From: Bordetella parapertussis
Lineage (GTDB): Bacteria > Pseudomonadota > Gammaproteobacteria > Burkholderiales > Burkholderiaceae_C
Assembly (NCBI GenBank): GCA_945870575.1
Contig: CAMBSK010000012.1
Coordinates: 1 to 64,000 of the forward strand
Direction of reading: 5' to 3'
DNA: 64,000 nt
In this document: positions 2-22,414 of the stretch, in pieces
Layout of the letters: the number at the start of each line of letters is the position of its first letter
How positions within the stretch are numbered: position 1 is the first letter of the stretch
Made by a program: the position numbers and the translations under genes
The notes under the pieces: model-generated
Told to the model about the DNA's origin: nothing
What the model saw: the letters and a program-made list of their open reading frames with translations, nothing else
The model's database searches: none

Positions 2-442
2 ATCGGCGTGCCCATCTACACCATTTTGGAGATTGTGCGATCTAGCAAGTTTCATCCTGTCAGAGGCGCGTCAGAGGTGATTGACGGCTTGATCAATTTG
101 CGCGGCAAAGTGGTCACCGTCATCAATACCGGCATCGCATTTGAAACTCACAAAGTACTCATCAGCGATGAGTCGCGCATTTACATATTCAAGAACAACG
201 CTGAGTTGAAAGAGCTCACCGACATCGACAGCGATGAAGATATGTCGCCGGACAACATTGGCCTGCATGTCGAAAAAATCGAGGGCGTGATCAACGTTGA
301 CAAAGAGGAACTGCAGCCGGTGCCGACCAACATGGCGCATCCTTTCTACCAACATGTGGTGCGTCGAGGTGAGGACTTCATCATCATCCTCAAGCCCTCT
401 AAAGCCATTATTTTGAACTCCACTGAGACGGTGAAACCATGA
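2..442 (+). CDS. cheW: CheW-like chemotaxis coupling protein, 5' end cut off by the window
   Basis: CheW proteins couple chemoreceptors to the histidine kinase CheA in the signalling array under the inner membrane. The visible 146 codons begin inside the CheW beta-barrel: the frame is open from base 2 (Ile-Gly-Val-Pro-Ile-Tyr), so the GTG at base 8 is an internal valine and the true start lies upstream. The segment INLRGKVVTVINT matches the conserved CheW core around residues 30-42 of the fragment, and a later VEKIEGVINVDKEEL strand also fits. The stop overlaps the next ATG (ATGA), which indicates translational coupling to the Cache-like gene. CheA, receptors and the rest of a che cluster would be expected just outside the window. 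Family is confident; which array it serves cannot be seen. Confidence 0.85.
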   Translation: MGVPIYTILEIVRSSKFHPVRGASEVIDGLINLRGKVVTVINTGIAFETHKVLISDESRIYIFKNNAELKELTDIDSDEDMSPDNIGLHVEKIEGVINVDKEELQPVPTNMAHPFYQHVVRRGEDFIIILKPSKAIILNSTETVKP

Positions 443-2610
443 AGCAAGCCCAAGACATCATGTTCAATATTTACAACCCGGTCATCACTTTCGAGCACCG
501 TGCCGCTTACGACATGATCGTGAGCCAATTGCAAGAAATTTTCCCTATTTGCAACCAAGGCAAGTGCAAGGCCTTGGAGGTGACGGACGACCCGCAAAAA
601 CAAAAACAGATCAATGACTTGATGGAAAAGGTGGAGTTTTTCTCGGACAGCTTGATCAACATCACCAAGGTTTTTTTCGATCAGCTCTACCGTGCCAAAG
701 AAGGGTCTTCTGAATCGATTTCTTACTCGATGGCGAAAATTAAAATTGACATGATGGAGCGCAGCCTGCTCGAGCGCACCTGCGATGTACGCTGGTGGGC
801 GTTGGAGAAAGCTTTTTGGCAATGCATCGAAGTCTCGAATGCAGCGCATGACAACAAAGAAGGCAAAAGTAAAACTGCGGGCAAAACCACGCAACACAGC
901 ACCCATCAGCAAGCCATCGACTTGGCCTGCACGCGTTTGGAAGACATTCGCAGCTCTTACACCTTGTACCGTGACTTGGTGATAGTCAACGCGCAAGGTA
1001 CGGTAGTGGCTAGTTCCAATGTCGATCGAAAACACCTGACGTTGGGCTTGGATGTGTCCGACGAAGCCTGGTTTCAACGCGGCTTGCAAACCAAGGATGG
1101 TACTGATTACCACGTGCAAGACATTGCCATCTCTAAGCTTGAAGACCAAGCTTCATTGATCTATGCCACAGCCATTCGCGCCAACGGGGATGAAAACGGT
1201 GAGGTGATTGGCGTGATGGGCGTGTTGTTTGACTTTCAAGGTGAATGCCAAATCATCTTGGACGACTATCTTCCCAAAGGCCCCGAGGGGGATATATTGG
1301 ATGGTTGGTTTTCGTTTTTCACCAACCGACAAGGTAAGGCGATTTGCTCCAGCGACCAGTATTTCATTCCTTTTGGCGCATCTCCCGAGTTGCCACGCAG
1401 CCATCGCCATTTGAGCAAGCCCGGTGAGTCACAAGTGTCTACCGGTATCTTTTTTGGCACCCGTTCCTTACTGGTGTCCTACCACTCGGCGGGCTTCAAT
1501 GAGTACGAAGGATTAGGCTGGACCAGCCATTTGGTGTTGCCCATCACCGCCATCTTCGAGCGCGTTAGCGACAGCAAGGTGTTTGGCATCACGCCCAAAG
1601 AACGGATGAGTTCAAGCTTGATTCCAGAGCAAAACCGTCAAACTTGCCAAGAGATACAGCGCAACAAAGGTGATATTCAACTCATTTCAATCAATGGCAT
1701 CGTGTTGGCCACTGACTTGGGCAAAGCAGGCAAAAGCTTCATGCCCATCTTTGACCAAATCACCGAGACTGGCAGTTCAACCACAGGCAAGATGGAGCTG
1801 CTGCTCTCGGAGATGTCGGCTGACATGTTGCAGCAAAACCTACAAGCCCTGACCAACCTGAGCCAACAAGCCATCGAATTGATCGATAGAAATTTATTTG
1901 AGCGCGCCGCCGATGTGCGTTGGTGGTCTACCGACCATGTGTTGTGGGAGTGCTTGCAATCCAAGGACAAGAAACATCTGGATACTATCAATAAGCGTTT
2001 ACAAATAATCAACGCTTCTTACACGATGTACCGCGACTTGGTGGTCGCTGATGCCAGTGGTCGCATCGTGGCCAACTCTAAAGTAGAAAACCGTGACAAG
2101 CTAGATGGAATGAGTGTGGCTGACCAGTACTGGTTCAGGCAAGGTATGCAAATGTCAAAGCTGGTGCAGTTTGCTGCGCAGGACGTGTGTGATTCGGAGC
2201 TTGAAAATGAAAACACCTCCTTGATTTACTGCTCGGCTGTGCTGGAAAACGGGCAACGCAGTGGCAAACCAGTGGGTGTTTTGGGCATCATGTTTGATTG
2301 GGAAAACCAAGCGAAACCCATTTTGGCCGATTGCTTGCCACGCATCAACAACGAAGTGGCACACGGTGGCGCGGCCTTTTATGTCAACCGCGAGCGTATG
2401 GTGATTGCCACCACCGATGACACCCATTTTCCGATCAACCGGGTGGTGCCTATCCCGCCTGAAAACGTTAATCTGAAAGACGGCCAAACGGCTTCGGGCA
2501 TATTCAGCGCCAATGGGCGTAAATACATCATTGGCTCCTCAGGCAGCAGTGGTTACCGCGAATACAAAGGCCTAGGTTGGACTGCACATGTCGTACGCGC
2601 CATCGATTGA
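439..2610 (+). CDS. Soluble sensory protein with two tandem Cache-like units
   Basis: The 723-residue product has an internal duplication. Unit 1 (about residues 113-366) and unit 2 (about 488-718) share the landmarks DVRWW (116-120, 492-496), SYT(L/M)YRDLV (173-181, 527-535), an A.G..VA(S/N)S strand, a GV(M/L)G(V/I).FD strand and a closing Y(E/K)GLGWT.H.V (356-365, 709-718). The YRDLV/G..VA pattern is typical of Cache-like ligand-binding sensor folds. No hydrophobic run is long enough for a signal peptide or membrane helix, so the protein is probably cytoplasmic, which is unusual for Cache domains. The N-terminal 100 residues and the linker (about 385-487) look helical and may connect to the array. 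It starts by ATGA overlap with cheW and overlaps the cyclase start by 23 bases. Its ligand is unknown; the family call is tentative, the duplication is certain. Confidence 0.6.
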   Translation: MKQAQDIMFNIYNPVITFEHRAAYDMIVSQLQEIFPICNQGKCKALEVTDDPQKQKQINDLMEKVEFFSDSLINITKVFFDQLYRAKEGSSESISYSMAKIKIDMMERSLLERTCDVRWWALEKAFWQCIEVSNAAHDNKEGKSKTAGKTTQHSTHQQAIDLACTRLEDIRSSYTLYRDLVIVNAQGTVVASSNVDRKHLTLGLDVSDEAWFQRGLQTKDGTDYHVQDIAISKLEDQASLIYATAIRANGDENGEVIGVMGVLFDFQGECQIILDDYLPKGPEGDILDGWFSFFTNRQGKAICSSDQYFIPFGASPELPRSHRHLSKPGESQVSTGIFFGTRSLLVSYHSAGFNEYEGLGWTSHLVLPITAIFERVSDSKVFGITPKERMSSSLIPEQNRQTCQEIQRNKGDIQLISINGIVLATDLGKAGKSFMPIFDQITETGSSTTGKMELLLSEMSADMLQQNLQALTNLSQQAIELIDRNLFERAADVRWWSTDHVLWECLQSKDKKHLDTINKRLQIINASYTMYRDLVVADASGRIVANSKVENRDKLDGMSVADQYWFRQGMQMSKLVQFAAQDVCDSELENENTSLIYCSAVLENGQRSGKPVGVLGIMFDWENQAKPILADCLPRINNEVAHGGAAFYVNRERMVIATTDDTHFPINRVVPIPPENVNLKDGQTASGIFSANGRKYIIGSSGSSGYREYKGLGWTAHVVRAID

Positions 2611-4399
2611 ACTGATGGCAAACGTCTCGGCCAGCAAGCGTGCTGCCTTGTCGCACCGCGCCATGGTGGCCTACGCCAACGCGGAATTTGTGCAAGAACT
2701 GGCCACTCAATGCATGCGCTATGGCGTGGGTTTGAGCATGTGTCATGACAACGCGTCTTTAGCCGAGTCTTTGGTCAAGGGTAAATTCAATGTGTTGTTT
2801 CTCGAATGCGATGTGTTGATTGGCGAGTACAGCGGCTTGATTTCAGAGTTGCAATCTCACAGAGCGCTGGGAAATTTGTTCATCGTGGTGTATTGCCAAG
2901 AAGAAATCAGTCAAGAGCGCGCCCGTTCGTTCATGGGTGCCAACGCCTTGGTGAGTGGTGACTTCAGCGATGACAAATTGGCAAAGTTGGTTAAACGTGC
3001 GTTCTCTTTACCCAAGCAAATTTGGTTGCTTACCAGTCGTTCTCAAAAAGAATTGGTACTGGCCTTGCAGCAAATCGGCTATGACGTGGTGGTCACCGAC
3101 AGCGTGCAAGTCAGCGCCGATATGAAGCAACACCTGACACCTGACTTGATTGTGTGCGACCACAAAATGGAGAGCAGCAGCGCCATCGAGGTGCAGCAAC
3201 AGCTCGCAGACATTGATTGTTTCAAAAGCGCGCCATTCATGGTCACCTTCAATGGCCGCGACGTGCATGAGATAGAAAAGCTGATCAAAAGTGAAGTCGG
3301 CGATATTTTGCTCTCGCCTTATGCCAGCGCGCAAAATCTGAAAAAGATACAAGACATCTGCCCATTGGCGCCAAAAGGCCGAAGGCTACGCGCCTTGGTC
3401 GTGGACGACAGCCCCACCATTCGCAGCCTGATCGTGGCTAAGTTCAAAGAGCTGGACTATCAAGTGGAAACCGCCAGCAATGGGTTTGAAGGCTATAAAG
3501 CGGTGCAGCGCTTCAAGCCCGACATCATCACCTCGGACTACGACATGCCGGTGTTGAACGGCTGGCAGTTCTGCTGCGAGGTGCGCGCGCACGATGACTA
3601 TAAAGATATTCCGATCATCATGATCACCACGCGCGCCACCGACCTTGACCTGAAGAAGGGCGAACTACTAGGCGTGTCGGCCTATCTCACCAAACCATTC
3701 ACACGCCAGGAGTTGAAAAAATCTATCGACACGGCGGTGCTGGCCGCTAAAGCCAAAAAAGAGCAAGAGATTATTGCCAAGTTTGTCGCCGCCGACACCT
3801 TGAAAGCGGTCAACCATATGCTCGATAGCGGGCAGGGTTTTGAGAACGGCGAAGAAAAACACATCACTATTTTGTTCTCTGACATTTGCGGCTTTTCCAG
3901 CAAATGCGAACGTTATTCGGCACGCAAAATCGTCAAGCTGCTCAACAGCTACTTTGACTTGATGGTCGATATATTGACTGAACATGGTGCCATCATTGAC
4001 AAGTTCATTGGCGACGCCATCGTGGCGCGATTTGATTCGGGCAACCAGGTACTGGACGCGCAAAACGCGGTCATGGCCGCTTGGCGCATGCAAGAAAAGC
4101 TTTTGCAATTCAATCTCGACTCTTTTGAAGAAATTCAAATTCGGGTGGGCGTCAACAGCGGCGTCGTTATTTTGGGCAATCTGGGCAGCACCCGCCATCG
4201 TTTGGAATACGCCATGGTGGGCGACAACGTCAATATTGGCCAACGCTTAGAGAGCGCCGCACCCAATACGAAATGTATGATTTCAGAAGCCACCTACCTA
4301 TTGGCCAAAGACAAGGTCTTGGTGGGTGAGAAATCCGAAATCAAAGTCAAAGGCAAGGCCGAGCCAGTGATTGCCTACGTCATTGAGGGTTTGCAATGA
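2588..4399 (+). CDS. Response regulator fused to a class III adenylate/guanylate cyclase
   Basis: Predicted to make a cyclic nucleotide under phosphorelay control. Residues about 25-260 resemble two receiver-like folds without a clear acidic pocket. A canonical receiver follows (about 266-385) with acidic pair D273/D274, phosphoacceptor D317 and K369. A class III cyclase domain occupies about 423-600: metal-binding D432 in LFSDICGFS and D476 in DKFIGD, purine-contact K472, and the transition-state pair N549/R553 in VNIGQR. The second base-specificity position, usually Asp or Thr in GDTVN, is Asn547, so cAMP versus cGMP cannot be read safely; cAMP is the likelier product. CheA is the obvious phosphodonor candidate. 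The ATG at 2588 overlaps the preceding gene by 23 bases. The cyclase assignment is confident. Confidence 0.9.
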   Translation: MSYAPSIELMANVSASKRAALSHRAMVAYANAEFVQELATQCMRYGVGLSMCHDNASLAESLVKGKFNVLFLECDVLIGEYSGLISELQSHRALGNLFIVVYCQEEISQERARSFMGANALVSGDFSDDKLAKLVKRAFSLPKQIWLLTSRSQKELVLALQQIGYDVVVTDSVQVSADMKQHLTPDLIVCDHKMESSSAIEVQQQLADIDCFKSAPFMVTFNGRDVHEIEKLIKSEVGDILLSPYASAQNLKKIQDICPLAPKGRRLRALVVDDSPTIRSLIVAKFKELDYQVETASNGFEGYKAVQRFKPDIITSDYDMPVLNGWQFCCEVRAHDDYKDIPIIMITTRATDLDLKKGELLGVSAYLTKPFTRQELKKSIDTAVLAAKAKKEQEIIAKFVAADTLKAVNHMLDSGQGFENGEEKHITILFSDICGFSSKCERYSARKIVKLLNSYFDLMVDILTEHGAIIDKFIGDAIVARFDSGNQVLDAQNAVMAAWRMQEKLLQFNLDSFEEIQIRVGVNSGVVILGNLGSTRHRLEYAMVGDNVNIGQRLESAAPNTKCMISEATYLLAKDKVLVGEKSEIKVKGKAEPVIAYVIEGLQ

Positions 4400-4449
4400 A
4401 GACATTTATGTTTCAAACCAGGACTCTTCAGATGCGAGCACGCCCATGA
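4396..4449 (+). CDS. 17-codon mini-ORF bridging cyclase and cyclic-nucleotide-binding gene
   Basis: ATG at 4396 overlaps the cyclase stop (ATGA) and the frame ends with a TGA at 4447 that overlaps the next gene's ATG at 4446 (again ATGA). The peptide would be MKTFMFQTRTLQMRARP. A ribosome finishing the cyclase could reinitiate here and then on the binding protein, which has no clear Shine-Dalgarno sequence of its own. It may be a coupling device, or the relic of a frameshifted N-terminus. Whether the peptide itself matters is unknown. Confidence 0.35.
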   Translation: MKTFMFQTRTLQMRARP

Positions 4450-4916
4450 TTTCCACGCCACTGCTTTTTTCTGTTGATGTTGATCGGCTAAGCAAGTACA
4501 AGAACAACTTCTTGAAATCGAGTCTGGGCATGGATGCCATTCAATCTGGCGAGTTGTCCAGCGATGAGCGACTGTTCCTGGCCTTGTTGGACACCAATTT
4601 ACTTAATGTCAACATGTTGCCGGCGAAGAAAAAAATCATTTCAAGTGGTCAAGAATTTGATGAGGCCTACTTCATCACCAGCGGAGCGGTTTGTGCCACG
4701 CGCGGTGACAAAACCTTCTTACTAGGTCCGGGCGCTGTATTGGGGCTGGCTGAAGGCATGGTCGGTATTCCTTCGCGCTACACGCTTACGGCGCATACCG
4801 CATTGAAAGTCAAGATCATTGCGTTTCACAAGGTAGACAACATCGTGCACCAATTACCGTCAGAAATGAAGTCGATTCTGGTCAGCCTCATCAAACGAAA
4901 CTTGACCGTCAAGTGA
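4446..4916 (+). CDS. Cyclic-nucleotide-binding domain protein, divergent
   Basis: A 156-residue protein with one Crp-type beta-roll. The region from about residue 57 (LPAKKKIISSGQEFDEAYFI) to 125 follows the cNMP-binding pattern, with glycine turns and a phosphate-binding cassette that is degenerate but keeps Glu and Arg (LGLAEGM...SRYTLTA). There is no helix-turn-helix, so it is not a transcription factor; it more probably reads or buffers the messenger. The ATG at 4446 is chosen because it overlaps the stop of the 17-codon mini-ORF and because the upstream in-frame TTG (4371) lies inside the cyclase gene. It sits between a cyclase and a second cNMP-binding protein, which supports the call. 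Ligand binding is uncertain because the cassette is altered. Confidence 0.65.
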   Translation: MISTPLLFSVDVDRLSKYKNNFLKSSLGMDAIQSGELSSDERLFLALLDTNLLNVNMLPAKKKIISSGQEFDEAYFITSGAVCATRGDKTFLLGPGAVLGLAEGMVGIPSRYTLTAHTALKVKIIAFHKVDNIVHQLPSEMKSILVSLIKRNLTVK

Positions 4917-4929
4917 TTCGGATTCAGCC

Positions 4930-5280
4930 ATGAAAAATTTTTCTCAAGAAGAATTCACCGCAGGGGAGAATATATTTCGTGCAGGTGACCAGGCTACACA
5001 TTTGTATTTCTTAGAAAAAGGCGAGGTCGAGTTGACGGATTCTTCGGGCAATGTTTTCGGTTCGATTTCGCAAGGACAGTCGTTTGGTGAAGCCGCGATT
5101 TTATCCGGTGGTATCCGAGCTGCCAGTATTCGCGCAAAGACCAATGTCATCTGCAAAAAAATCAACAACGAAGACGTTTCGGAGCTGTTGAAGAGCTATT
5201 CCCCTCTTTTGGTGGTTATTTTGGAGTCCTTGTTGCTTCAGCTTTCAATGAACAACACCATTAAAAAGACCGTGCGTTAA
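4930..5280 (+). CDS. Small cyclic-nucleotide-binding domain protein, canonical cassette
   Basis: This 116-residue protein is almost only a cNMP-binding domain. It has the entry strand FTAGENIFRAGDQATHLYFL, the GEVEL turn, and a near-consensus phosphate-binding cassette SFGEAAILSGGIRAASIRA, with the Glu that contacts ribose and the Arg that contacts the cyclic phosphate. A C-terminal helix (SELLKSYSPLLVVILESLL) follows, and no output domain. It may regulate a partner by binding, perhaps as a heteromer with the preceding divergent paralogue. It starts 13 bases after that gene and ends 2 bases before the phosphodiesterase start. Ligand binding is likely from the motif; the partner is unknown. 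Confidence 0.8.
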   Translation: MKNFSQEEFTAGENIFRAGDQATHLYFLEKGEVELTDSSGNVFGSISQGQSFGEAAILSGGIRAASIRAKTNVICKKINNEDVSELLKSYSPLLVVILESLLLQLSMNNTIKKTVR

Positions 5281-5282
5281 TC

Positions 5283-6122
5283 ATGAATAACCAAGCGCAA
5301 CTTCTGCAATTAACCGCAGACGATTGGCAAGCCTGTCTGGATGAATCGTTGCTGTCTTTGCGCGCTTCATGGGTGCAAGACTGGATGGGTTTGCCTCAGG
5401 TTTTGCAGGCCAGTATGGCGTTTTTGCAATTGAAGGAAACCACGCTCTCGGCGGCGGCCAGCAGCATGTTGGCTGCCGCCTTGGATGTTGCAAGCTATAG
5501 CGAGTCGCGCTTTCAACACAATAACCCATCGGATGAGCCAAAGTACCACAACCGATTGCACACCGCTGACGTCATCACCACCATGGCTTTGCAAATGGCT
5601 ATTGAAGCCAAACTCTCTGGCAAGTACGAATCCGATTGGTTGGCGGCAGGTTTGTTGGCGGCGGCGGGTCATGACTTCATGCATTCAGGTCAAGTGAACG
5701 CGGCCAAATTTCAGATTGAAATGCTCTCTTGTACGTACATGCGCCCTTTCTTAACCAAGCAGGCGGTGCCTGAGTTATGGGTGCAACGCATTGAGACGGC
5801 TATTGTTCGGACCGACTTTACATTGACGCCACAAAACCACCGGCTGGTTCAAGGCGTCGATTTTGAATGGAACCAAGCCTGGTTAAATGTGTTGTTGAAT
5901 GAAGCAGATATCTTGCCCAGCAGTATCCCAGTTTTGGGGCAATCTTTGAGTCAGGCACTGTCCCTGGAGTGGATGTTGATTGGTTATGAGGCTTATAAAA
6001 CGGTAGCTACGGTGCAAGGACGAGAGGCTTTCTTGAGGAATTTGCTATTTTCCAGTGCGTCTTCTCGAGCTTTGCAGGCGCCTCAGCGGTGCCGGTTGCA
6101 GTTGGCACAGACGCACGCTTGA
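5283..6122 (+). CDS. Class I (PDEase_I-type) 3',5'-cyclic nucleotide phosphodiesterase
   Basis: A 279-residue protein predicted to hydrolyse cAMP and/or cGMP. It carries the class I phosphodiesterase signature YHNRLHTADV (residues 88-97: proton donor H89, metal ligand H93), the HD pair H130/D131 followed by H134 (AAGHDFMH), a TD pair at 177-178 (AIVRTDF), and D209 in NEADI at the place of the last metal ligand (CAD in animal enzymes). These PDEase_I residues dominate in eukaryotes and are uncommon in bacteria, which more often use CpdA-type enzymes. No signal peptide or membrane segment is seen. It is the last gene of the cluster, 2 bases after a cNMP-binding protein, and a strong terminator follows, which fits a role in ending the cyclase signal. 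The general HD superfamily is certain; class I is well supported by residue order. Confidence 0.85.
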   Translation: MNNQAQLLQLTADDWQACLDESLLSLRASWVQDWMGLPQVLQASMAFLQLKETTLSAAASSMLAAALDVASYSESRFQHNNPSDEPKYHNRLHTADVITTMALQMAIEAKLSGKYESDWLAAGLLAAAGHDFMHSGQVNAAKFQIEMLSCTYMRPFLTKQAVPELWVQRIETAIVRTDFTLTPQNHRLVQGVDFEWNQAWLNVLLNEADILPSSIPVLGQSLSQALSLEWMLIGYEAYKTVATVQGREAFLRNLLFSSASSRALQAPQRCRLQLAQTHA

Positions 6123-6137
6123 GCGCCCAACAAAGAA

Positions 6138-6160
6138 AAAGCCCCGCAAAACGGGGCTTT
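6138..6160 (+). terminator. Rho-independent terminator, probably bidirectional
   Basis: A perfect hairpin AAAGCCCCG/CGGGGCTTT with loop CAAAA lies 16 bases after the phosphodiesterase stop. It is flanked by an A-run on the left and T residues on the right, so it can also serve the barstar gene that converges from the other strand. Confidence 0.85.
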
Positions 6161-6182
6161 CAAGACGGTTGGTATTTTAAAA

Positions 6183-6752
6183 TCAAGCTGCAGTAAGCCA
6201 GTAGCCTGCGTTGAATGGACTGCTCATGCGCAAAGCCAACGGCGACACATCAATCAGTTTGTCGGTCGGCATTTTTTCGCCGTCACCCAGTTCTATGCCT
6301 GTGGGCTCTATGCCGTCGGCGCGCTCTGCGGCGGCCGCACGTGCCACCGAGAACGAATAAAAACAGCGAAATGAGACTTTGCGCTCGCCCCAGAATTCAG
6401 CGGCTTCGCGGAACACATCCAATAACTGCTCGCGTGCTTCCTTGTCAAACTTGGCGTGGGCGGGAATGTGTTCAAGCACCAGGATAAAGCCGGGCTGTTG
6501 GCCTGACTTGTACAAGGCATCGCTCATGCAGTCGAACAAGGTGTCAAAGTTCTTGCCTGCTTGCTGCGAGAAAGTGAACTGTTGTGCCGTCATATCCAGA
6601 ATATCCTGCTTGCTCAAGGCATTGGCCAAGTTGGCATACAGGAAGTGGTAACCCAGTTGCGCTGCAGCAGTTTGCAAGTCCTCCACGCGAAAAGCACGTA
6701 TGGATTGAACGATATTTGTTTTGACTGTACGAAGAGGCATGTCCGTCGCCAT
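6183..6752 (-). CDS. Barstar-family (barnase inhibitor) protein
   Basis: The 189-residue product has the barstar core: a GKNFDTLFDCMSDAL helix (about 66-80) matching the family's G-NWDAL-DCL helix, then a PGFILVLEHIP strand and a helical stretch with DVFREAAEFWGER. Barstar proteins neutralise barnase-type ribonucleases by plugging the active site. A long C-terminal extension (about 140-189) is atypical for the roughly 90-residue classical inhibitor. No barnase-type gene adjoins it, so it may be an orphan immunity or RNase-regulating protein. The ATG at 6752 has AGGA 7 bases upstream. It converges on the phosphodiesterase cluster and shares its terminator. Confidence 0.75.
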   Translation of the reverse strand: MATDMPLRTVKTNIVQSIRAFRVEDLQTAAAQLGYHFLYANLANALSKQDILDMTAQQFTFSQQAGKNFDTLFDCMSDALYKSGQQPGFILVLEHIPAHAKFDKEAREQLLDVFREAAEFWGERKVSFRCFYSFSVARAAAAERADGIEPTGIELGDGEKMPTDKLIDVSPLALRMSSPFNAGYWLTAA

Positions 6753-6986: not shown

Positions 6987-9308
6987 TTATCTGACCGCAT
7001 TTATATCGGCAACAGCAATGGCTGTCATGTTCACAATACGGCGTACCGTGGTGCTGGCGGTCAGGATTTGCACCTGCTTGGCCGCACCCAACAGAACCGG
7101 ACCGATGGCAATATTGCCGCCAGCAGCCGTTTTCAGCAGGTTGTAAGTGATGTTGGCTGCATCCAGGTTCGGCAAAACCAGCAAATTGGCATCCGAGAGC
7201 AGTGTGCTGTTGGGCATCAGGACTTGGCGTGCTGCGCTGTCGATGGCGACATCGGCGTGCATTTCACCGTCTATCTCCAACCAAGGGGCAAGTTGCCGCA
7301 CCAGCGCCAGCGTACGGCGCATTTTCAGCGCGGTCGGATGGTTGCTGCTGCCGAAATTAGAATGCGACAGCAACGCGGCCTTGGGTTCGACGCCGAAGCG
7401 CTTCATTTCTTCTGCCGCCATGACGGTAATCTCTGCCAATTGTTCGGCCGTCGGGTCGTAGTTGATGTGCGTATCGACAAGAAACAACTGGCGCTCTGGC
7501 AGCAGCAGTGCGTTCATGCACGCATAGGTGCTGACACCGGGGCGCAAGCCTATGACTTGGTCTACATATTGCAGATGTGAGTCCGGTGTAGACCAGGTGC
7601 CGCAGATCAGGCCGTCGGCTTCGCCCTTGTGCACCATCATGCAGCCGATCAGCGTTAAGCGCCTGCGCATGTCTATCTTGGCCAATTGTTGGGTCACGCC
7701 TTTGCGCTCGGTCATGCGGTGGTAGCTTTGCCAGAAATCGCGGTAGCGGTGGTCGTCTTCCACGTTCACCACCTGGTAATCCACGCCTTCGGTCATGCGC
7801 AAGCCGAAACGCTCAATACGCTGGCTGATGACGGAGGGGCGGCCGATCAAAATTGGTTTGGCCAGAGCTTCATCAAGCACGATTTGCGCGGCGCGCAGCA
7901 CGCGCTCGTCTTCGCCTTCAGCAAAGCAAATGCGTTTTCTGGTTCCGCGCTTGGCTGCGCTGAATACCGGTTTCATGGCCGCGCCCGAGGCATACACCAG
8001 CGATTGCAGTTTTTCGCGGTAGGCGTCCATGTCAGCGATAGGGCGTTGCGCCACGCCGCTGGCAATCGCTGCTTGCACCACAGCGGGCGCAATTTTCATC
8101 ATCAAGCGCGGGTCAAACGGTTTGGGAATCAAATATTCAGGGCCGAACGCCAAGGTTTCACCGGCATAGGCAGCGGCCACCACTTCGCTTTGCTCGGCTT
8201 GCGCCAATTCAGCGATGGCGTGCACCGCAGCCACTTCCATTTCCGGGGTGATGGTGGAGGCGCCTGCATCCAGCGCGCCGCGAAAGATGTAAGGAAAGCA
8301 CAGGACGTTGTTGACCTGGTTGGGGTAGTCGGTGCGGCCGGTGGCCATGATGGCGTCGTTGCGCACTTTCAAGACTTCTTCGGGCAGGATTTCCGGCGTT
8401 GGATTGGCCAGTGCCAGTATCAGCGGCCGCGCAGCCATCACTTTGACCATGTCTGGTTTGAGCACGCCGCCGGCCGACAGTCCCAGAAACACATCGGCAT
8501 CAGCTATGACCTCGGCCAGAGTGCGCGCCGAGGTTTTTTGCACGAACTCGATTTTGTCTTCGTCCATCAATTCGGTTCGGCCTTCATAAACCACGCCGGC
8601 CAAATCGGTGACCCAGATATTCGAGCGCGGCATGCCCAGTTTCACCAGCATGCCCAGGCAGGCCAGTGCGGCGGCGCCCGCGCCAGAGGCGACGAGTTTG
8701 ACTTTGGCAATGTCTTTGCCAACGACCTTCAAGCCGTTCAAAATAGCCGCGCCGACCACAATGGCAGTGCCGTGTTGGTCGTCGTGGAAGACCGGAATCT
8801 TCATGCGTTTGCGCAGCTGGCGCTCGACGTAAAAGCAATCCGGCGCTTTGATGTCTTCCAGGTTGATACCGCCGAAAGTCGGCTCCAGTGACGCAATGAT
8901 GTCGACCAGTTTCTCCGGGTCTTTTTCGTTGATCTCGATATCAAATACATCGATACCGGCAAATTTTTTGAACAAAACGCCCTTGCCTTCCATCACCGGC
9001 TTGGCAGCCAGCGGGCCGATGTCGCCCAGTCCCAGCACCGCTGTGCCGTTGGTGATGACGGCGACCAGGTTGCCACGGCTGGTGTATTTGTAAGCGTTGT
9101 TCGGGTCTTTGACGATTTCTTCGCAAGGCGCGGCCACACCGGGCGAATACGCCAGCGACAAATCATGTTGGTTGACCAGTTGCTTGGTCGCTTGAATGGC
9201 GACTTTGCCCGGGGTCGGGAACTCGTGGTATTCGAGCGCGGCTTTGCGTAATTGAGCCCGGGCTTGCGGACTGGTGTGGTCGGCCGCTGCCGTCTTGGGG
9301 TCACTCAT
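6987..9308 (-). CDS. maeB: NADP-dependent malic enzyme with C-terminal phosphotransacetylase-like domain
   Basis: Oxidatively decarboxylates malate to pyruvate, giving NADPH, in the cytoplasm. The 773-residue length is that of MaeB-type hybrid enzymes. The N-terminal malic enzyme domain (about 20-430) shows [12 protein letters not shown], the metal/substrate segment HDDQHGTA and a nucleotide-binding GAGAAA. The C-terminal domain (about 440-770) resembles phosphate acetyltransferase ([23 protein letters not shown]), which in this family is thought to bind acetyl-CoA for allosteric control rather than act in catalysis. The start ATG has GAAAG upstream. The small outer-membrane-type gene upstream on the same strand ends 24 bases away. 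A long open frame on the opposite strand is a codon-bias shadow. Confidence 0.95.
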
Positions 9309-9332
9309 GCGTATCTTTCGGTAGGAGGCAGG

Positions 9333-9980
9333 TCAAAACTTGAAGGTGTATTCCAGCAAGACAGAGTCGCTGTCCAGGGCTTGGCTTTCAGCCTGCCAGG
9401 AGCGCACCCAGTTAATTTCAATGCGGTGCTTATCAGCAAGATTAAAACCGGGGCCCGAGCGCAGCTTATTAAAGCCCTGATCAGTTGTTTGATCCAGCGC
9501 GCGTTGTATGCGCACGCCCAGCATAAAGTCGAAAAAACCGTATTCAACACTCAGCGCCGCATCTGAATACCCGTACCAGAATCTGGCGCTGTCACTTTGG
9601 CTGCGCCCGAGCAGGCCGCGGAAATACATGCCCAGGTGGTCAGCCAAGGCGACGTCTTTGCGCGCCCGTATGGCCAATCCATGCGCATTGCTGTAAGTGT
9701 TGCTGACAGTGCTGCTGTCTGTATCTCGATCGGTGATTATCAGCAACTCGACCCGGTTGACAGCGCCGTTTTTAAAGCTCAAAGCTGGCAACAGCGTGAC
9801 GGAATTCGCTACCAGCGATTTGTCCGCCGAGGTATCACGCTCAAACCCTATGCCTAACTCGGGCTGCCCGCCCCACAGTTGCGTCTGCGCCTTTGCTGCT
9901 GTGCATGAGAGCGCGGCGCTCAGGCTGGTTAGGCAGACAAATAGCGCGTAATGACGGCGGGCTGGGAAAAAAGTCTTCAT
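9333..9980 (-). CDS. Small outer-membrane-type beta-strand protein of unknown function
   Basis: The 215-residue product starts MKTFFPARRHYALFVCLTSL and has a signal peptide that probably ends after AKA (about residue 31). The mature part alternates polar and hydrophobic residues in strands separated by DTDSS- and SQSDS-type turns, and the last residue is Phe after an aromatic/hydrophobic pattern (LLEYTFKF), the usual sorting signal of outer-membrane beta-barrels. I therefore infer a small barrel, perhaps 8-10 strands. The start at 9980 is preferred because upstream in-frame codons run into the rubredoxin region and give low-complexity sequence. It lies between rubredoxin and maeB on the same strand. 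No specific family was recognised. Confidence 0.7.
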   Translation of the reverse strand: MKTFFPARRHYALFVCLTSLSAALSCTAAKAQTQLWGGQPELGIGFERDTSADKSLVANSVTLLPALSFKNGAVNRVELLIITDRDTDSSTVSNTYSNAHGLAIRARKDVALADHLGMYFRGLLGRSQSDSARFWYGYSDAALSVEYGFFDFMLGVRIQRALDQTTDQGFNKLRSGPGFNLADKHRIEINWVRSWQAESQALDSDSVLLEYTFKF

Positions 9981-10059
9981 GTCTTGATTTTGCCTCAGCT
10001 TATCGCCGTGTGGAATGACAGCTGCTGTGCGGGCGCTACACCGGCGCAAGGAGCTTGGA

Positions 10060-10236
10060 TTAAAACTCGACCATTTCGAAATCGGCCTTGGACACGCCGC
10101 AATCCGGGCAGGCCCAGCCTGCTGGTACATCGGCCCACAGCGTGCCCGGGGCAATGCCATCTTCCGGGCGTCCGGCGGCCTCGTCATAGGTAAAGCCGCA
10201 AACAATACAAACATAGGTTTTGTGGGTGTCGCTCAT
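10060..10236 (-). CDS. Rubredoxin, 58 residues
   Basis: Rubredoxins carry one iron tetrahedrally bound by four cysteines and move single electrons in the cytoplasm. The translated 58 residues begin [14 protein letters not shown] and contain both knuckles, CIVCG (10-14) and CPDCG (43-47), with the intervening Y-DEA-G-PEDGI-PGT-W-D-P--W pattern that defines the family, and end DFEMVEF. Length and Cys spacing match typical bacterial rubredoxins. It precedes the outer-membrane-type gene on the same strand by 79 bases and lies downstream of pepP. Electron partners are not visible here; alkane hydroxylases or rubredoxin reductase may be elsewhere. Confidence 0.95.
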
Positions 10237-18885: not shown

Positions 18886-20673
18886 TTAACGCAAGGTCGT
18901 ATTCAAGCGTTTCAAAAAGGCTGGTGAGAGTAGCAAATGCTCTTCGATCAGGGTGCACAACTGCTGCCGGTCAAAAGGTTTGAGTATCAGGGCATTGGCG
19001 CCGACATCGACGCAGCGCTGGTGGTCTTCGCTGCTGACATTGGCGGTCAGCACCAGCACCGGCAACTCTTTATGCGGTGACGGCCACTCGGTGCGCAAGC
19101 GGCGTGTCGCTTCTATACCGTCCATCACCGGCATCAGCATGTCCATGAGTACCATATCAAAGCTGTCTTTTTCCAAGGCATTCAGCGCCTCCATCCCGTT
19201 GCCAGCTTGCACCATCACGGCTTGCGGCCAGTGGGATTTCACCACCTGACAGGCCAGCAATCGGTTGACCGCACTGTCGTCGACCACCAGAAAGCGCACC
19301 GCAAATGTTTGCAGCTGATTGGTACCGAGGTCGACGCCCTTGGGCTGGCCCGGCGCCTCGGTGATCACCAGCGGCAAGCTAAACCAGAAACGTGAACCTT
19401 TACCGGGTTGGCTTTCCACGCCTATGTTTCCGCCCAGCAGTTTCACCAAGTTGCGGCTGATGGCCAGGCCCAGGCCGTTGCCTCCGTAAGCCGAGGCGGT
19501 TTCGTTGCTGGCTTGCTCGAAGCGCTCAAAGATTTTGTCCAGCCGTCCGGGTGCAATACCGATGCCGCTGTCTGTCACCGAAAACAACAGTTGATCGGCT
19601 TCCCGCTCAATACGCAAAGTGACCGTTCCCTGGTGGGTGAATTTGATGGCGTTGCCCAATAAATTGACCAGCACTTGCATGACCCGGTGCCGGTCGGACA
19701 CCACCCACGTCGGCAGCGTGTCGACAACTTCCAGGCTGTAGCGAATTTGCATGCTGTTCACCCGTTGCTGGAACAGATTGAAAGCGGCGCGTACCGTGGC
19801 CATAAGCTCGAACGGCTCCTGCCGCACTTGCAGTTGTCCGCGTTGCAGTTGAGAGAAGTCCAATACGTCGTTGATGACCGTCATCAGGTGATCGCTTGAC
19901 TGCTGAACCAGCTCGGCCAGCTCCAGCGCGCGCGGGCGTTGCTTGACATGCTGGCGCAGCAAATCGCTGAAACCGATGATGGCGTTCATGGGCGTACGCA
20001 GTTCGTGGCTGAGCAAGGCAATGAAATTGTCTTTGATGGATTGCGCGCGCAGAAGCTCGGTGCGCTTTTGCAGCAAATGCACTTGTCGTTCTTCGCTCGA
20101 GCGCAGGCTACGCTGGTACAGGCGGTGGTAAATCAAGGGCAGTGACAGCATGAAAATACTGACCGCCACATCGTTCCACGCGTTTTGCCGCAGCATTTGC
20201 GGTGTGGCGACGTAAATTGTCGGCATCCAGCCCTGCCAGACGCTCAAGGCCATGCCCAATAGGCACAGCAGACAGACCACCAGCCAGAAAATGCCTTCGG
20301 CAAAACCGATCAAAAACAGGGAAATCATGGGCAGCATGACCATCCAGTTGAGCGAATTTGAAAACAAGCCGCCGCTGTGAAGGGATTCGCGCACCAGGTG
20401 AAAAAATGCATAAGCCAGCGCGGCGTTAAGACTCCAGCGCAGCGGCAACCCAACCGCATAAAGCAGCATCAGCGCCAAAATGATGAGGCTCAGCACATGC
20501 GCGTTCTGCCTATCAACCGCGTCCGGCGACAGGCTGCCCAGCACCCAACTCATCAAGGCCAGGCAAAACGTAAAACCCATGTAAAACTGCCCCTGAGCGC
20601 TCACCCAGTGTGCTAGTAGCCGGTTAAACCTGCTGCTGCTTATTGGCGGTGACGGGGGTGTGCGCTCAGCCAT
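18886..20673 (-). CDS. Membrane hybrid sensor histidine kinase/response regulator (second of a tandem pair)
   Basis: The protein (about 595 residues) has about six hydrophobic segments in residues 30-185, a coiled linker, a HisKA dimerisation domain with phosphorylatable H223 ([10 protein letters not shown]), a HATPase domain ([10 protein letters not shown] box, [18 protein letters not shown]), and a C-terminal receiver with D510 in VLMDMLMP and LKPF. The ATG at 20673 overlaps the stop of the upstream kinase (ATGGCTGA), which shows coupling; a farther start would lie deeper in that gene. The sensed signal is unknown; the membrane domain lacks a large periplasmic loop, so it may sense membrane state or a hydrophobic ligand. 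The attached receiver suggests a multi-step relay to an Hpt protein not encoded here. Confidence 0.9.
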
Positions 20674-22414
20674 GGGCCGCCTCTTTTTTTGCCAGCCAAA
20701 CTTCGACACAAGTTTGCAAATGGGCTTTGTTCAAAGGTTTGACCAGCACATCATTCATACCGGCCTCCAGGCAGGCGGCATGATCCTGAGGATGGCTGCT
20801 GGCGGTCAGCCCGATGATGGCCACGTCGCGTTGTTGTGCTGAATCAAAGGCACGGATGGCGCGCGTGGCCTGCAAGCCGTCCATGTCGGGCATGATCAAG
20901 TCCATCAGAATAATGTCCGCCGGCCGGGTTTGAAGGCTGCTGATACAGGCTTGAGCGCTGTTGACACTTTGCACCTGAGACAAGGGCCATAACTGCTGGC
21001 ACAGAAAGGTGGCGACTTGCAGATTGACCGGGTTGTCATCCACCAGCAGCAAACGCCACGACCGGTTGCTGATGCCAGGGTCAGGTGAGCCGGGCGCCGT
21101 ATCAGGCAGCTGCGGCGGGTCACAGGGCAGCAACGGAATGCGGAACCAGAAGGTCGAGCCTTTGCCGCGCTCGCTGTGCATGCCTATATCGCCGCCAAAC
21201 AAATCGACCAGGCCTTTGCAGATCGCCAGCCCCAAGCCGGCACCGCCGAACTGGCGTTGCGTTTCCTGGTCGGCGTGCTCAAAACGGTTGAAGATAAAAG
21301 CTTGCAATTCCGGGGCAATGCCGACGCCGGTGTCCTTGACCTCAAACAGCAGTTGTTGATTGTCCCGCTGTATATTGAGTTGCACCAGGCCGCTGGGTGT
21401 GAATTTGAACGCGTTATCAATCAAGTGGCACAGCACGTCTTTCAAACGCGCTGCATCAGTGCTCACCCACTCTGGCAATTGCGGATTTAAGCGGGCGCGA
21501 AATTGCACCGGGCTGTCCGGCGCGCGGGTGAAATTCTGCATGCATTGCTCGAACGCGTCGCGCAAGCGTGTGGGCTTGAGTTGCAAAGGCATGCGCCCGG
21601 CTTGTATTTGAGAGAAATCCAGAATCTGGTTGACCAGTTTGAGCAAATGGTCGGTAGATTCGCGCACCAGTGCCACTGTGCGCAATCCTTGCGGGTCGTT
21701 GGCTAGTTCGTTGTGTATCACTTCGTTAAAGCCCAGAATTGCATTCATGGGGGTGCGCAACTCGTGACCGACCGAGGCCAGAAACTGATCCTTGTAAGAC
21801 TCGGCACTCAGCAGCGCCGCGCGTGCTTCGCTGAGTTCCTGGTTGCGCGCATTGATCTCGTCGAGCTGCTTGAGGTAAATACGTTGGTAAATCAGCAAAC
21901 CTATCAGCAGGCTGATAGCGGTGAAAGCGTAATTGCCCAACGACCACAACAAATGCTGGTGTCCATAGACATAACTGACCGGCAGCCAGCCTTTTTCCGT
22001 CAACGGAATCAAGGACAGTACAGACAATATGACCAAGCCTATCCATACCAGCGAGTCCCGCCAGCCCAGCAAAAACACAGCCGGCACCGGCAGCACCATC
22101 AGCCAGATCATGGTCGAGGAAAACAAACCGCCGGTGACCCAGATGGCGTAAAAAATCAGCAGGCCGGATTGCGCCAACAGCAAATGCGTGGTCAGCCGCA
22201 TCGACCATTGCCATTGCCAGAAAGCCAGTCCGGTCAGCACCACCCCTGCTATGGTCAGCCAAAACACATGGTGAAACGCAAAGGGTTCGATCAGCAGCAG
22301 AAACACCAGCAGATTGAACAGGATGGCGCCGAAAAAAACCGCAAACGCTGAAAACTGTTGCCGTTGGACTTGTTCAGGCAAATGAAGATAGAGGTATTGA
22401 AGCCAGCGCAGCAT
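20666..22414 (-). CDS. Membrane hybrid sensor histidine kinase/response regulator (first of a tandem pair)
   Basis: This 582-residue paralogue of the downstream gene has six predicted membrane helices (about 22-176), a helical linker, H217 in [12 protein letters not shown], ATPase boxes (LIDNAFKFT, DTGVGIA, FGGAGLGLAICKG) and a receiver with IILMDLIMPDMDG. The close match in architecture to its neighbour suggests a duplication, with the membrane parts more diverged than the kinase parts. It starts 21 bases after the glutathione peroxidase stop and so may belong to an lplT-eamA-gpx-kinase transcript. The partner regulator is not in the window. Confidence 0.9.
   Translation of the reverse strand: MLRWLQYLYLHLPEQVQRQQFSAFAVFFGAILFNLLVFLLLIEPFAFHHVFWLTIAGVVLTGLAFWQWQWSMRLTTHLLLAQSGLLIFYAIWVTGGLFSSTMIWLMVLPVPAVFLLGWRDSLVWIGLVILSVLSLIPLTEKGWLPVSYVYGHQHLLWSLGNYAFTAISLLIGLLIYQRIYLKQLDEINARNQELSEARAALLSAESYKDQFLASVGHELRTPMNAILGFNEVIHNELANDPQGLRTVALVRESTDHLLKLVNQILDFSQIQAGRMPLQLKPTRLRDAFEQCMQNFTRAPDSPVQFRARLNPQLPEWVSTDAARLKDVLCHLIDNAFKFTPSGLVQLNIQRDNQQLLFEVKDTGVGIAPELQAFIFNRFEHADQETQRQFGGAGLGLAICKGLVDLFGGDIGMHSERGKGSTFWFRIPLLPCDPPQLPDTAPGSPDPGISNRSWRLLLVDDNPVNLQVATFLCQQLWPLSQVQSVNSAQACISSLQTRPADIILMDLIMPDMDGLQATRAIRAFDSAQQRDVAIIGLTASSHPQDHAACLEAGMNDVLVKPLNKAHLQTCVEVWLAKKEAAHG

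Follow-up and report, generated by a model that had tools for sequence, protein, structure and literature searches.

A putative CheA cassette with a candidate soluble receptor and a predicted cyclic nucleotide output at the edge of a Bordetella parapertussis contig

The stretch of DNA considered here, referred to as the window, is the first 64,000 nucleotides of contig CAMBSK010000012.1 in an assembly of Bordetella parapertussis (GCA_945870575.1). Its first genes, within positions 2..6122, are six open reading frames (ORFs) on the + strand, all verified in place. They encode the coupling protein CheW, a protein with dCache modules, a class III cyclase with a receiver, two small proteins with cyclic nucleotide monophosphate (cNMP) domains and a predicted cyclic nucleotide phosphodiesterase (PDE). 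It is argued below that these genes probably form the 3' end of a chemosensory cassette that is complete in itself and has a cyclic nucleotide as output, in which a soluble receptor would set CheA and CheA would act on the receiver-cyclase (estimated probability about 0.62). The genes are as follows.

2-442, + strand: cheW, its 5' end open at the window edge (PF01584, 1.5e-15, Pfam)
439-2610, + strand: dCache protein, 723 aa, with a 4-base overlap with cheW (dCache_1, 2e-17 in two stretches, Pfam)
2588-4399, + strand: receiver-class III cyclase, 603 aa (Response_reg, 3.4e-31 in two stretches; Guanylate_cyc, 7e-28)
4446-4916, + strand: cNMP-a, a small divergent cNMP-domain protein, 156 aa, behind a 46-base gap (a TTG start at 4371 is likewise open)
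4930-5280, + strand: cNMP-b, a small cNMP-domain protein, 116 aa, behind a 13-base gap (PF00027, 4.2e-20)
5283-6122, + strand: predicted class I-type cyclic nucleotide PDE, 279 aa, behind a 2-base gap (PF00233, 8.6e-7)

An earlier note on this DNA had proposed six co-oriented genes in this order, and both the ORF positions and the Pfam assignments agree. The spacing it described, with short overlaps or gaps and a single 46-base gap before cNMP-a, is also borne out. Two starts are available to the cyclase: ATG 2588 gives a 23-base overlap with the dCache gene and an in-frame ATG at 2615 gives a 4-base gap. The window CheW lacks 12 N-terminal residues that the seven aligned relatives have, and is 59-65% identical to these.

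The core cassette and its carriers

Relatives were sampled in a single pattern scan, in which species genomes were searched with the dCache protein. This gave 13 stretches, of which ten were confirmed (65-70% identity to the dCache protein). The carriers are five verrucomicrobial metagenome-assembled genomes (MAGs; named Verrucomicrobia, Opitutales or Opitutia), three Methylococcaceae, one unclassified proteobacterium and one genome labelled marine gamma proteobacterium HTCC2089. When the ORFs of these loci are compared with the six proteins above, a common gene order emerges: hybrid CheA, CheW, dCache protein and receiver-cyclase. CheA is directly upstream of CheW in 9/9 loci that reach that far, with only its C-terminal part on the contig in L005 and L006; L010 begins inside the dCache gene. 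The receiver-cyclase is 3' of the dCache gene in 10/10 loci from two phyla. This recurrence in two phyla means that the gene order is not due to chance.

Complete versions of the cassette CheA have 884-898 aa. In 3/3 that were scanned, Hpt, dimerisation, ATPase, two CheW-like and receiver domains are all over the Pfam cut-off, and 7/7 full-length sequences aligned share H46 (the histidine of the Hpt), the ATPase motifs and D823 (the aspartate of the receiver). The earlier note had allowed that CheW might belong to an unrelated upstream cluster. With a hybrid CheA adjoining CheW in all nine relatives, CheW is instead part of the same cassette. As for the other upstream neighbours that had been envisaged, CheR and CheB were not found on the cassette contigs of the ten genomes. 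The gene order itself recurs only in part: the CheA-CheW-dCache-cyclase core is found again, but the cNMP pair and the PDE lie outside it.

By inference, then, a hybrid CheA should lie just upstream of the window. One clue comes from P0176 and P0294, database relatives of the PDE and cNMP-a. Both start with the Hpt domain of the cassette CheA; identity to the L009 CheA is 60% over 108 residues in one and 58% over 124 in the other. One of them runs on into a PDE end that is 74% identical to the window PDE over 131 residues, and the other ends in 26/26 residues identical to the window cNMP-a. In each the Hpt is kept to about residue 111-127, as if the middle of the cassette had been lost twice, by real deletions or by assembly joins. 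Judged from sequence, deletions and joins alike place the cassette CheA with the window genes in their own lineage.

What do the carrier genomes hold besides the cassette? Searches for MCPsignal (the signalling domain of methyl-accepting chemotaxis proteins, MCPs), CheR and CheB found none of the three in 7/10 cassette genomes; as a control, the same searches were positive in 7, 7 and 6 of 14 control genomes, respectively. Five verrucomicrobial genomes (G001-G004 and G008, 2.5-4.1 Mb) have one CheA and three CheW domains, all within the cassette, with no other CheA or CheW and no MCP, CheR or CheB detected. In G005 one CheA was found, split over two contig pieces, and MCP, CheR and CheB again went undetected. 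Neither CheA nor CheW was detected in G010, because its contig begins inside the dCache gene. Chance gaps in the MAGs are an unlikely cause of the missing genes, since five MAGs give the same answer. As a chemosensory system, the cassette has CheA and CheW, but no receptor recognised by PF00015 and no CheR or CheB. Two further observations concern these genomes. G001-G004 and G008 have 2 to 27 flagellin-like matches each, yet no MCP, CheR or CheB was found in them and their sole CheA is that of the cassette. A second cluster in G009 (L029, G009:C9:60000-79000) encodes two long MCPs together with CheR, CheB and one protein with a CheW domain, and no second CheA was found in this genome.

The system is rare. 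Close relatives occur in 1/369 genomes in the class of G009 and 1/288 in the phylum of G001, in each case the centre genome itself. Besides the centre genomes there are 0/368 and 0/287 with a close relative, and the other 4 and 3 matching genomes have only distant ones (25-35% identity). The window protein is about 70% identical to the verrucomicrobial versions and 65-67% to those of Methylococcaceae, which makes lateral transfer of the cassette likely. Among viral contigs, 26 stretches matched a pattern and none was a relative. Nine plasmid records matched, all distant (26.6-30.2% identical).

The dCache protein as a candidate receptor

The earlier note had recognised a tandem Cache-like sensor. 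The soluble double dCache stands, but not the role of an extra sensor beside ordinary receptors. Tip homology suggests instead that the dCache protein is best read as a diverged soluble chemoreceptor with a degenerate MCP tip.

No signal peptide was seen in the protein by eye. It has no clear transmembrane stretch, with a hydropathy maximum of 1.5 (19 residues), whereas two membrane controls reached 2.36 and 2.57; in the family, 8 of 50 members have values of at least 1.6, and the highest is 1.91. Its N-terminal half is homologous to its C-terminal half (E 4.9e-69 by hhalign, with the alignment starting at residue 100), and the protein is therefore a tandem duplication of a unit consisting of a helical leg and a dCache module. 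An AlphaFold 2 (AF2) model has a pLDDT of 86.6 and a pTM of 0.82. Compared with the PDB, both modules of this model resemble chemoreceptor and kinase dCache structures. The comparison covered mainly residues 88-374 and 456-723, and MCP signalling domains were unlisted in it on their own, which excludes nothing. The parts of the protein lie as follows.

727..1563, + strand: first dCache module, about residues 97-375
1672..1764, + strand: degenerate MCP-tip segment DIQLISINGIVLATDLGKAGKSFMPIFDQIT, residues 412-442, in register with small proteins made up of MCP tip and Cache
1804..2607, + strand: second dCache module, about residues 456-723

The segment DIQLISINGIVLATDLGKAGKSFMPIFDQIT is a strongly conserved stretch between the two modules. 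N419, G420, A424, L427, G428, G431, P436, F438 and I441 are invariant in 69/69 aligned sequences including the window. Its assignment as a tip is made through small-protein intermediates and not by direct comparison with ordinary MCPs. The small relatives L017-L020 (frames of 375-447 aa) have a canonical MCP tip followed by a RNLYERSCDVRWW-dCache unit shared with the window (CRWW in L018), and PF00015 is over the cut-off in 4/4 small proteins scanned, among them that of L024. Eight plasmid-borne relatives, of the nine plasmid matches, share this small-receptor layout, one frame being cut at the tip. In a MAFFT alignment the window stretch pairs without gaps with the MCP tip, which reads ALNAxIEAARAGxxGxGFxVV or a close variant, in 11/12 small proteins; the ORF of the twelfth is cut at the tip. 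A profile of the 11 matches the C half in register, beginning at the tip (E 7.3e-53, mostly dCache score), and the N half (E 2.5e-48) beginning only behind the tip. A degenerate tip is thus retained in the second unit, and none can be recognised in the first.

Relatives also suggest a link with CheA. In G503 (L024, about 8946-10070) a small receptor gene is directly 3' of genes for CheW, CheA, MCP, CheB and CheR, all five Pfam-confirmed. A distant double-dCache relative in G242 (L013:1306-3978) is fused to a C-terminal CheW domain (PF01584 at 1.5e-14; dCache_1 under the cut-off). Together this neighbourhood and this fusion tie the double-dCache family to CheA. There is also a second double-dCache branch (P0055-P0120; mostly 43-50% identical, 780-840 aa), with planctomycetes and Desulfobacter among its named members, which keeps a tip-like stretch, typically IQLISLNGIVFASKLGKRGVALGPIFDQI.

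Cyclic nucleotide output and lineage-specific genes

The cyclase has a receiver-like N-terminal region upstream of its D317 receiver and cyclase domain. The earlier note had named D317 as the receiver aspartate, and this residue is kept in 11/11 aligned cyclases including the window, as are D273, D274, T347 and K369. D432, K472, D476, N549 and R553 of the cyclase domain are invariant in the same number. We take D432 and D476 to be the metal aspartates, N549 and R553 the transition-state residues and K472 a substrate-specifying residue. Ala542 stands at the second substrate-specifying position in 11/11, beside the lysine of adenylyl cyclase type. Lys472 favours ATP as the substrate, and the product is thus most likely cAMP. 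All ten cassette genomes have at least one class III cyclase, and G005, G006 and G009 have none besides that of the cassette.

The PDE motifs HNRLHTADV and HDFMHSGQVN are intact in the window; HNxxHxxDV and HDxxHxxxxN are presumably the metal-binding motifs of class I enzymes. The residues expected for catalysis are thus in place in the kinase (of the relatives), receiver, cyclase and PDE. cNMP-b reaches 72 bits with PF00027 and carries the pattern GEAAILSGGIRA, which we take to be a normal phosphate-binding cassette. cNMP-a is a more marginal case, with 26.2-26.6 bits against a cut-off of 27.5 and a Glu out of place in GLAEGMVGIPSRY; among its homologues, precomputed PF00027 is found in 92/100 of the matches listed.

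Beyond the cyclase the loci diverge. A PDE-like gene is 3' of the cyclase only in L005, L006 and L009, and a genome search finds it in the same 3/10 genomes (for L003, L007 and L010, with less than 0.5 kb of downstream sequence, the outcome comes from that search). These Methylococcaceae proteins have altered metal-site motifs in 3/3 (HSIxHFxDV and HDYGHDGSFN), and that of L009 is under the Pfam cut-off (19.9 vs 24.8). No counterpart of cNMP-a or cNMP-b was found in the ten loci (phmmer, 1e-4), save the cNMP domain of a longer L009 protein. The cNMP pair and the PDE are lineage-specific additions outside the conserved core. The proposal that synthesis, binding and degradation are encoded together may accordingly hold for the window, but of these genes only that of the cyclase belongs to the conserved core. 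The PDE and cNMP-a do travel together, since their database relatives share six same-size contigs longer than 3 kb where 0.12 are expected (jittered lengths; maximum 3 in 2000 trials). For dCache and cNMP-a the count is one and for dCache and PDE none, in the first 48 of 120 dCache rows.

Other genes might read the messenger elsewhere. An MscS-type channel with a C-terminal cNMP domain is divergent to cheA in 3/3 Methylococcaceae (L009:1388-2935, minus strand; L053:2361-3875; L054:2217-3764) and is a plausible reader there. In G005 and G006 the cheA piece beside the MscS-cNMP gene is on a separate contig from the remaining cassette, and their link is inferred. Other cNMP proteins are present in all ten cassette genomes. 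Those of two MCP-less genomes (L058, L059) were considered as readers and set aside, having a cNMP domain only and lying away from the cassette. In G007 a tandem of stand-alone cNMP proteins of 114 and 158 aa (L051:1872-2708, G007:C193) resembles the window pair and adjoins genes that by eye look like hydrogenase-maturation genes.

Competing readings, known systems and neighbouring genes

How could such a cassette work? Gene content, order, conservation, homology, catalytic residues and the inventories of five genomes are established directly, and the ligand, signal direction, phosphotransfer and enzyme products are the conditional parts of what follows. The dCache modules would bind a cytoplasmic ligand or sense a cytoplasmic state, and the resulting change in the helical hairpin would shift CheA activity. 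CheW would couple the hybrid CheA to the soluble duplicated receptor, whose altered tip would set CheA through CheW; a single chain with two units could replace a receptor dimer. CheA would then phosphorylate D317 and so raise or lower the activity of the cyclase; CheA's own receiver may be a phosphate sink replacing adaptation by CheR and CheB. In the window lineage the two small cNMP proteins might read or buffer the messenger and the class I PDE remove it; in Methylococcaceae the neighbouring MscS-type channel would be the likely reader. A fuller version holds that this is a four-gene system (hybrid CheA, CheW, soluble receptor, receiver-cyclase) with no recognisable MCP or methylation that is the cell's only CheA-CheW. 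Its single-chain duplicated mini-receptor would replace the dimer, with a rebuilt tip binding CheA-CheW outside a trimer-of-dimers array, and cAMP would have lineage-specific readers. This version is offered tentatively, at somewhat less than even odds.

Several observations weigh against a self-contained cassette with its own receptor. The window has no CheA and starts inside cheW. All ten cassette genomes are MAGs, for which there is no completeness figure, and the conserved core is known only from the genomes of one pattern scan. The cAMP assignment rests on Lys472 alone, because Ala542 is at the second position. The remaining points concern the receptor, and those on the tip residues, on PF00015 and on MCPs elsewhere would also suit a different proposal, namely that the dCache protein has an accessory role in ligand binding or as a scaffold, that ordinary MCPs elsewhere drive CheA-CheW and that the tip resemblance is a mere relic. 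The canonical tip residues held to contact partner receptors and CheA, E385 and R388 in Tsr, are replaced. PF00015 was searched in 50 family members with E up to 10 and is not among the 25 of 39 matched families listed. Compared with 13 ordinary MCPs (hhalign), the hairpin segment has a local P of 0.024 in the expected register and a global P of 0.88. In the AF2 model, helix 397-426 is parted from helix 428-496 by a break at 427, which we take to be the aligned place of the MCP tip turn, but a hairpin and a kinked helix are both compatible with it. The tip segment folded alone, from a single sequence and with no alignment, gave a pLDDT of 45 and was discarded. In addition, MCPsignal, CheR and CheB are each present in the same 3/10 genomes (G006, G007 and G009), though not on the contigs that carry the cassette. 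No CheA besides that of the cassette was found in G006 and G009 (E up to 1e-15), and there the cassette CheA may serve ordinary MCPs too. However, this proposal leaves the other 7/10 genomes with no detected MCP, CheR or CheB, in five of which the cassette holds all CheA and CheW found, and nine tip residues invariant in 69/69 sequences are not how a relic behaves. It is therefore considered unlikely.

Alternatively, the cassette could control motility by a CheY-like path (the CheA receiver or a separate CheY), with the cyclase as a side branch. Flagellin-like genes are indeed present in 7/10 cassette genomes, including the five MCP-less verrucomicrobial ones. Yet the Methylococcaceae G005, G006 and G009 carry the same cassette and have no flagellin match, and the receiver-cyclase is the only output gene found in 10/10 loci, though no search was made for CheY. 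Control of motility is accordingly judged improbable, more so than an accessory role for the dCache protein. The least probable proposal, to which very little weight is given, is that the genes are merely co-inherited neighbours, a CheA-CheW-receptor set beside an independent cAMP module of cyclase, cNMP proteins and PDE. It would account for the differences in PDE and cNMP genes between lineages, and for the six same-size contigs shared by PDE and cNMP-a as against one for dCache with cNMP-a and none with PDE in the first 48 of 120 dCache rows. It does not fit with a cyclase that has a full receiver and is 3' of the dCache gene in 10/10 loci, also where PDE and cNMP genes are absent.

The nearest functional parallel to the proposed cassette is Pil-Chp with CyaB of Pseudomonas aeruginosa, where cAMP is likewise under CheA-type control through a class III cyclase. 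The receptor of Pil-Chp is PilJ, a membrane MCP, methylation enzymes are present, and CyaB is encoded separately and is not known to have a CheA-fed receiver. The cassette of the window, in contrast, would combine a soluble cryptic receptor, a receiver-cyclase and CheA with no CheR or CheB. CyaC of cyanobacteria is a phosphorylation-gated class III cyclase linked to a receiver, as in the window, but is not known to be encoded with CheA. TlpD and the cytoplasmic receptors of R. sphaeroides have full MCP signalling domains and a motility role. The Che3 system has its output via CheS3, and no receiver-cyclase is known from its cluster. Soluble receptors that signal to CheA-CheW, as proposed here, are described for TlpD and the R. 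sphaeroides cytoplasmic cluster (PMC3964821, PMC6829392). A hybrid CheA with a receiver and a non-motility output is likewise described for Che3 of Rhodospirillum centenum (CheA3, cyst formation; PMC3868531). MtpA of Methylobacterium is cytosolic (PMC10613068) and might be related to the small receptors. Passages of PMC3945109, PMC7184735, PMC10613068 and PMC7390727 describe no such cassette. No comparable system was found in a search of open-access papers, judged by titles and the beginnings of abstracts, with most subscription papers outside its scope.

For the receptor, the nearest known counterparts are small MCPs of the cytoplasm that carry a Cache at the C-terminus (WP_269154015.1, WP_060148510.1, WP_008345706.1 and WP_318784668.1), all annotated "methyl-accepting chemotaxis protein". 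They have the same tip-legs-dCache unit and are homologous over most of the second half of the window protein. However, they consist of a single unit with a canonical tip, whereas the window protein is a tandem with a degenerate tip, encoded in a CheA cassette. Their four annotated plasmid records list no CheA within the stretch inspected. What would be new is the lack of a recognisable MCP and of CheR and CheB, the tandem receptor, and a receiver-bearing cyclase as a direct output within the cassette. Chemosensory systems are held to require MCP receptors and, in nearly every case, methylation. If the proposal is right, genomes scored as receptor-less could hold a receptor that is invisible to the MCP model. 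It would also raise the question of whether CheA can be controlled without trimer-of-dimers arrays, and offer a clean case of a CheA whose output is a cyclic nucleotide and not a motor. The four cassette proteins are apparently soluble, and the whole route from signal to messenger could be reconstituted in vitro, which is hard with membrane arrays.

Two features lie directly downstream of the PDE gene.

6137-6161, minus strand: intrinsic-terminator-like stem between the PDE and barstar-family genes, with its T-run on the minus strand
6183-6752, minus strand: barstar-family gene (Pfam), convergent to the PDE gene

The earlier note had placed a strong terminator at the end of the cluster. A stem is present, but on the minus strand only; in the + orientation there are three T at the end of its 3' side. 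It therefore fits the convergent barstar-family gene better than the end of a PDE operon. Terminator-like sites in the scan show no excess (7 vs a shuffle mean of 7.7). Further into the window, at 18886-22414 on the minus strand, two genes for hybrid histidine kinases lie side by side. Their products, of 607 and 582 aa, share 37% identity over 479 residues, and the pair probably goes back to an old tandem duplication.

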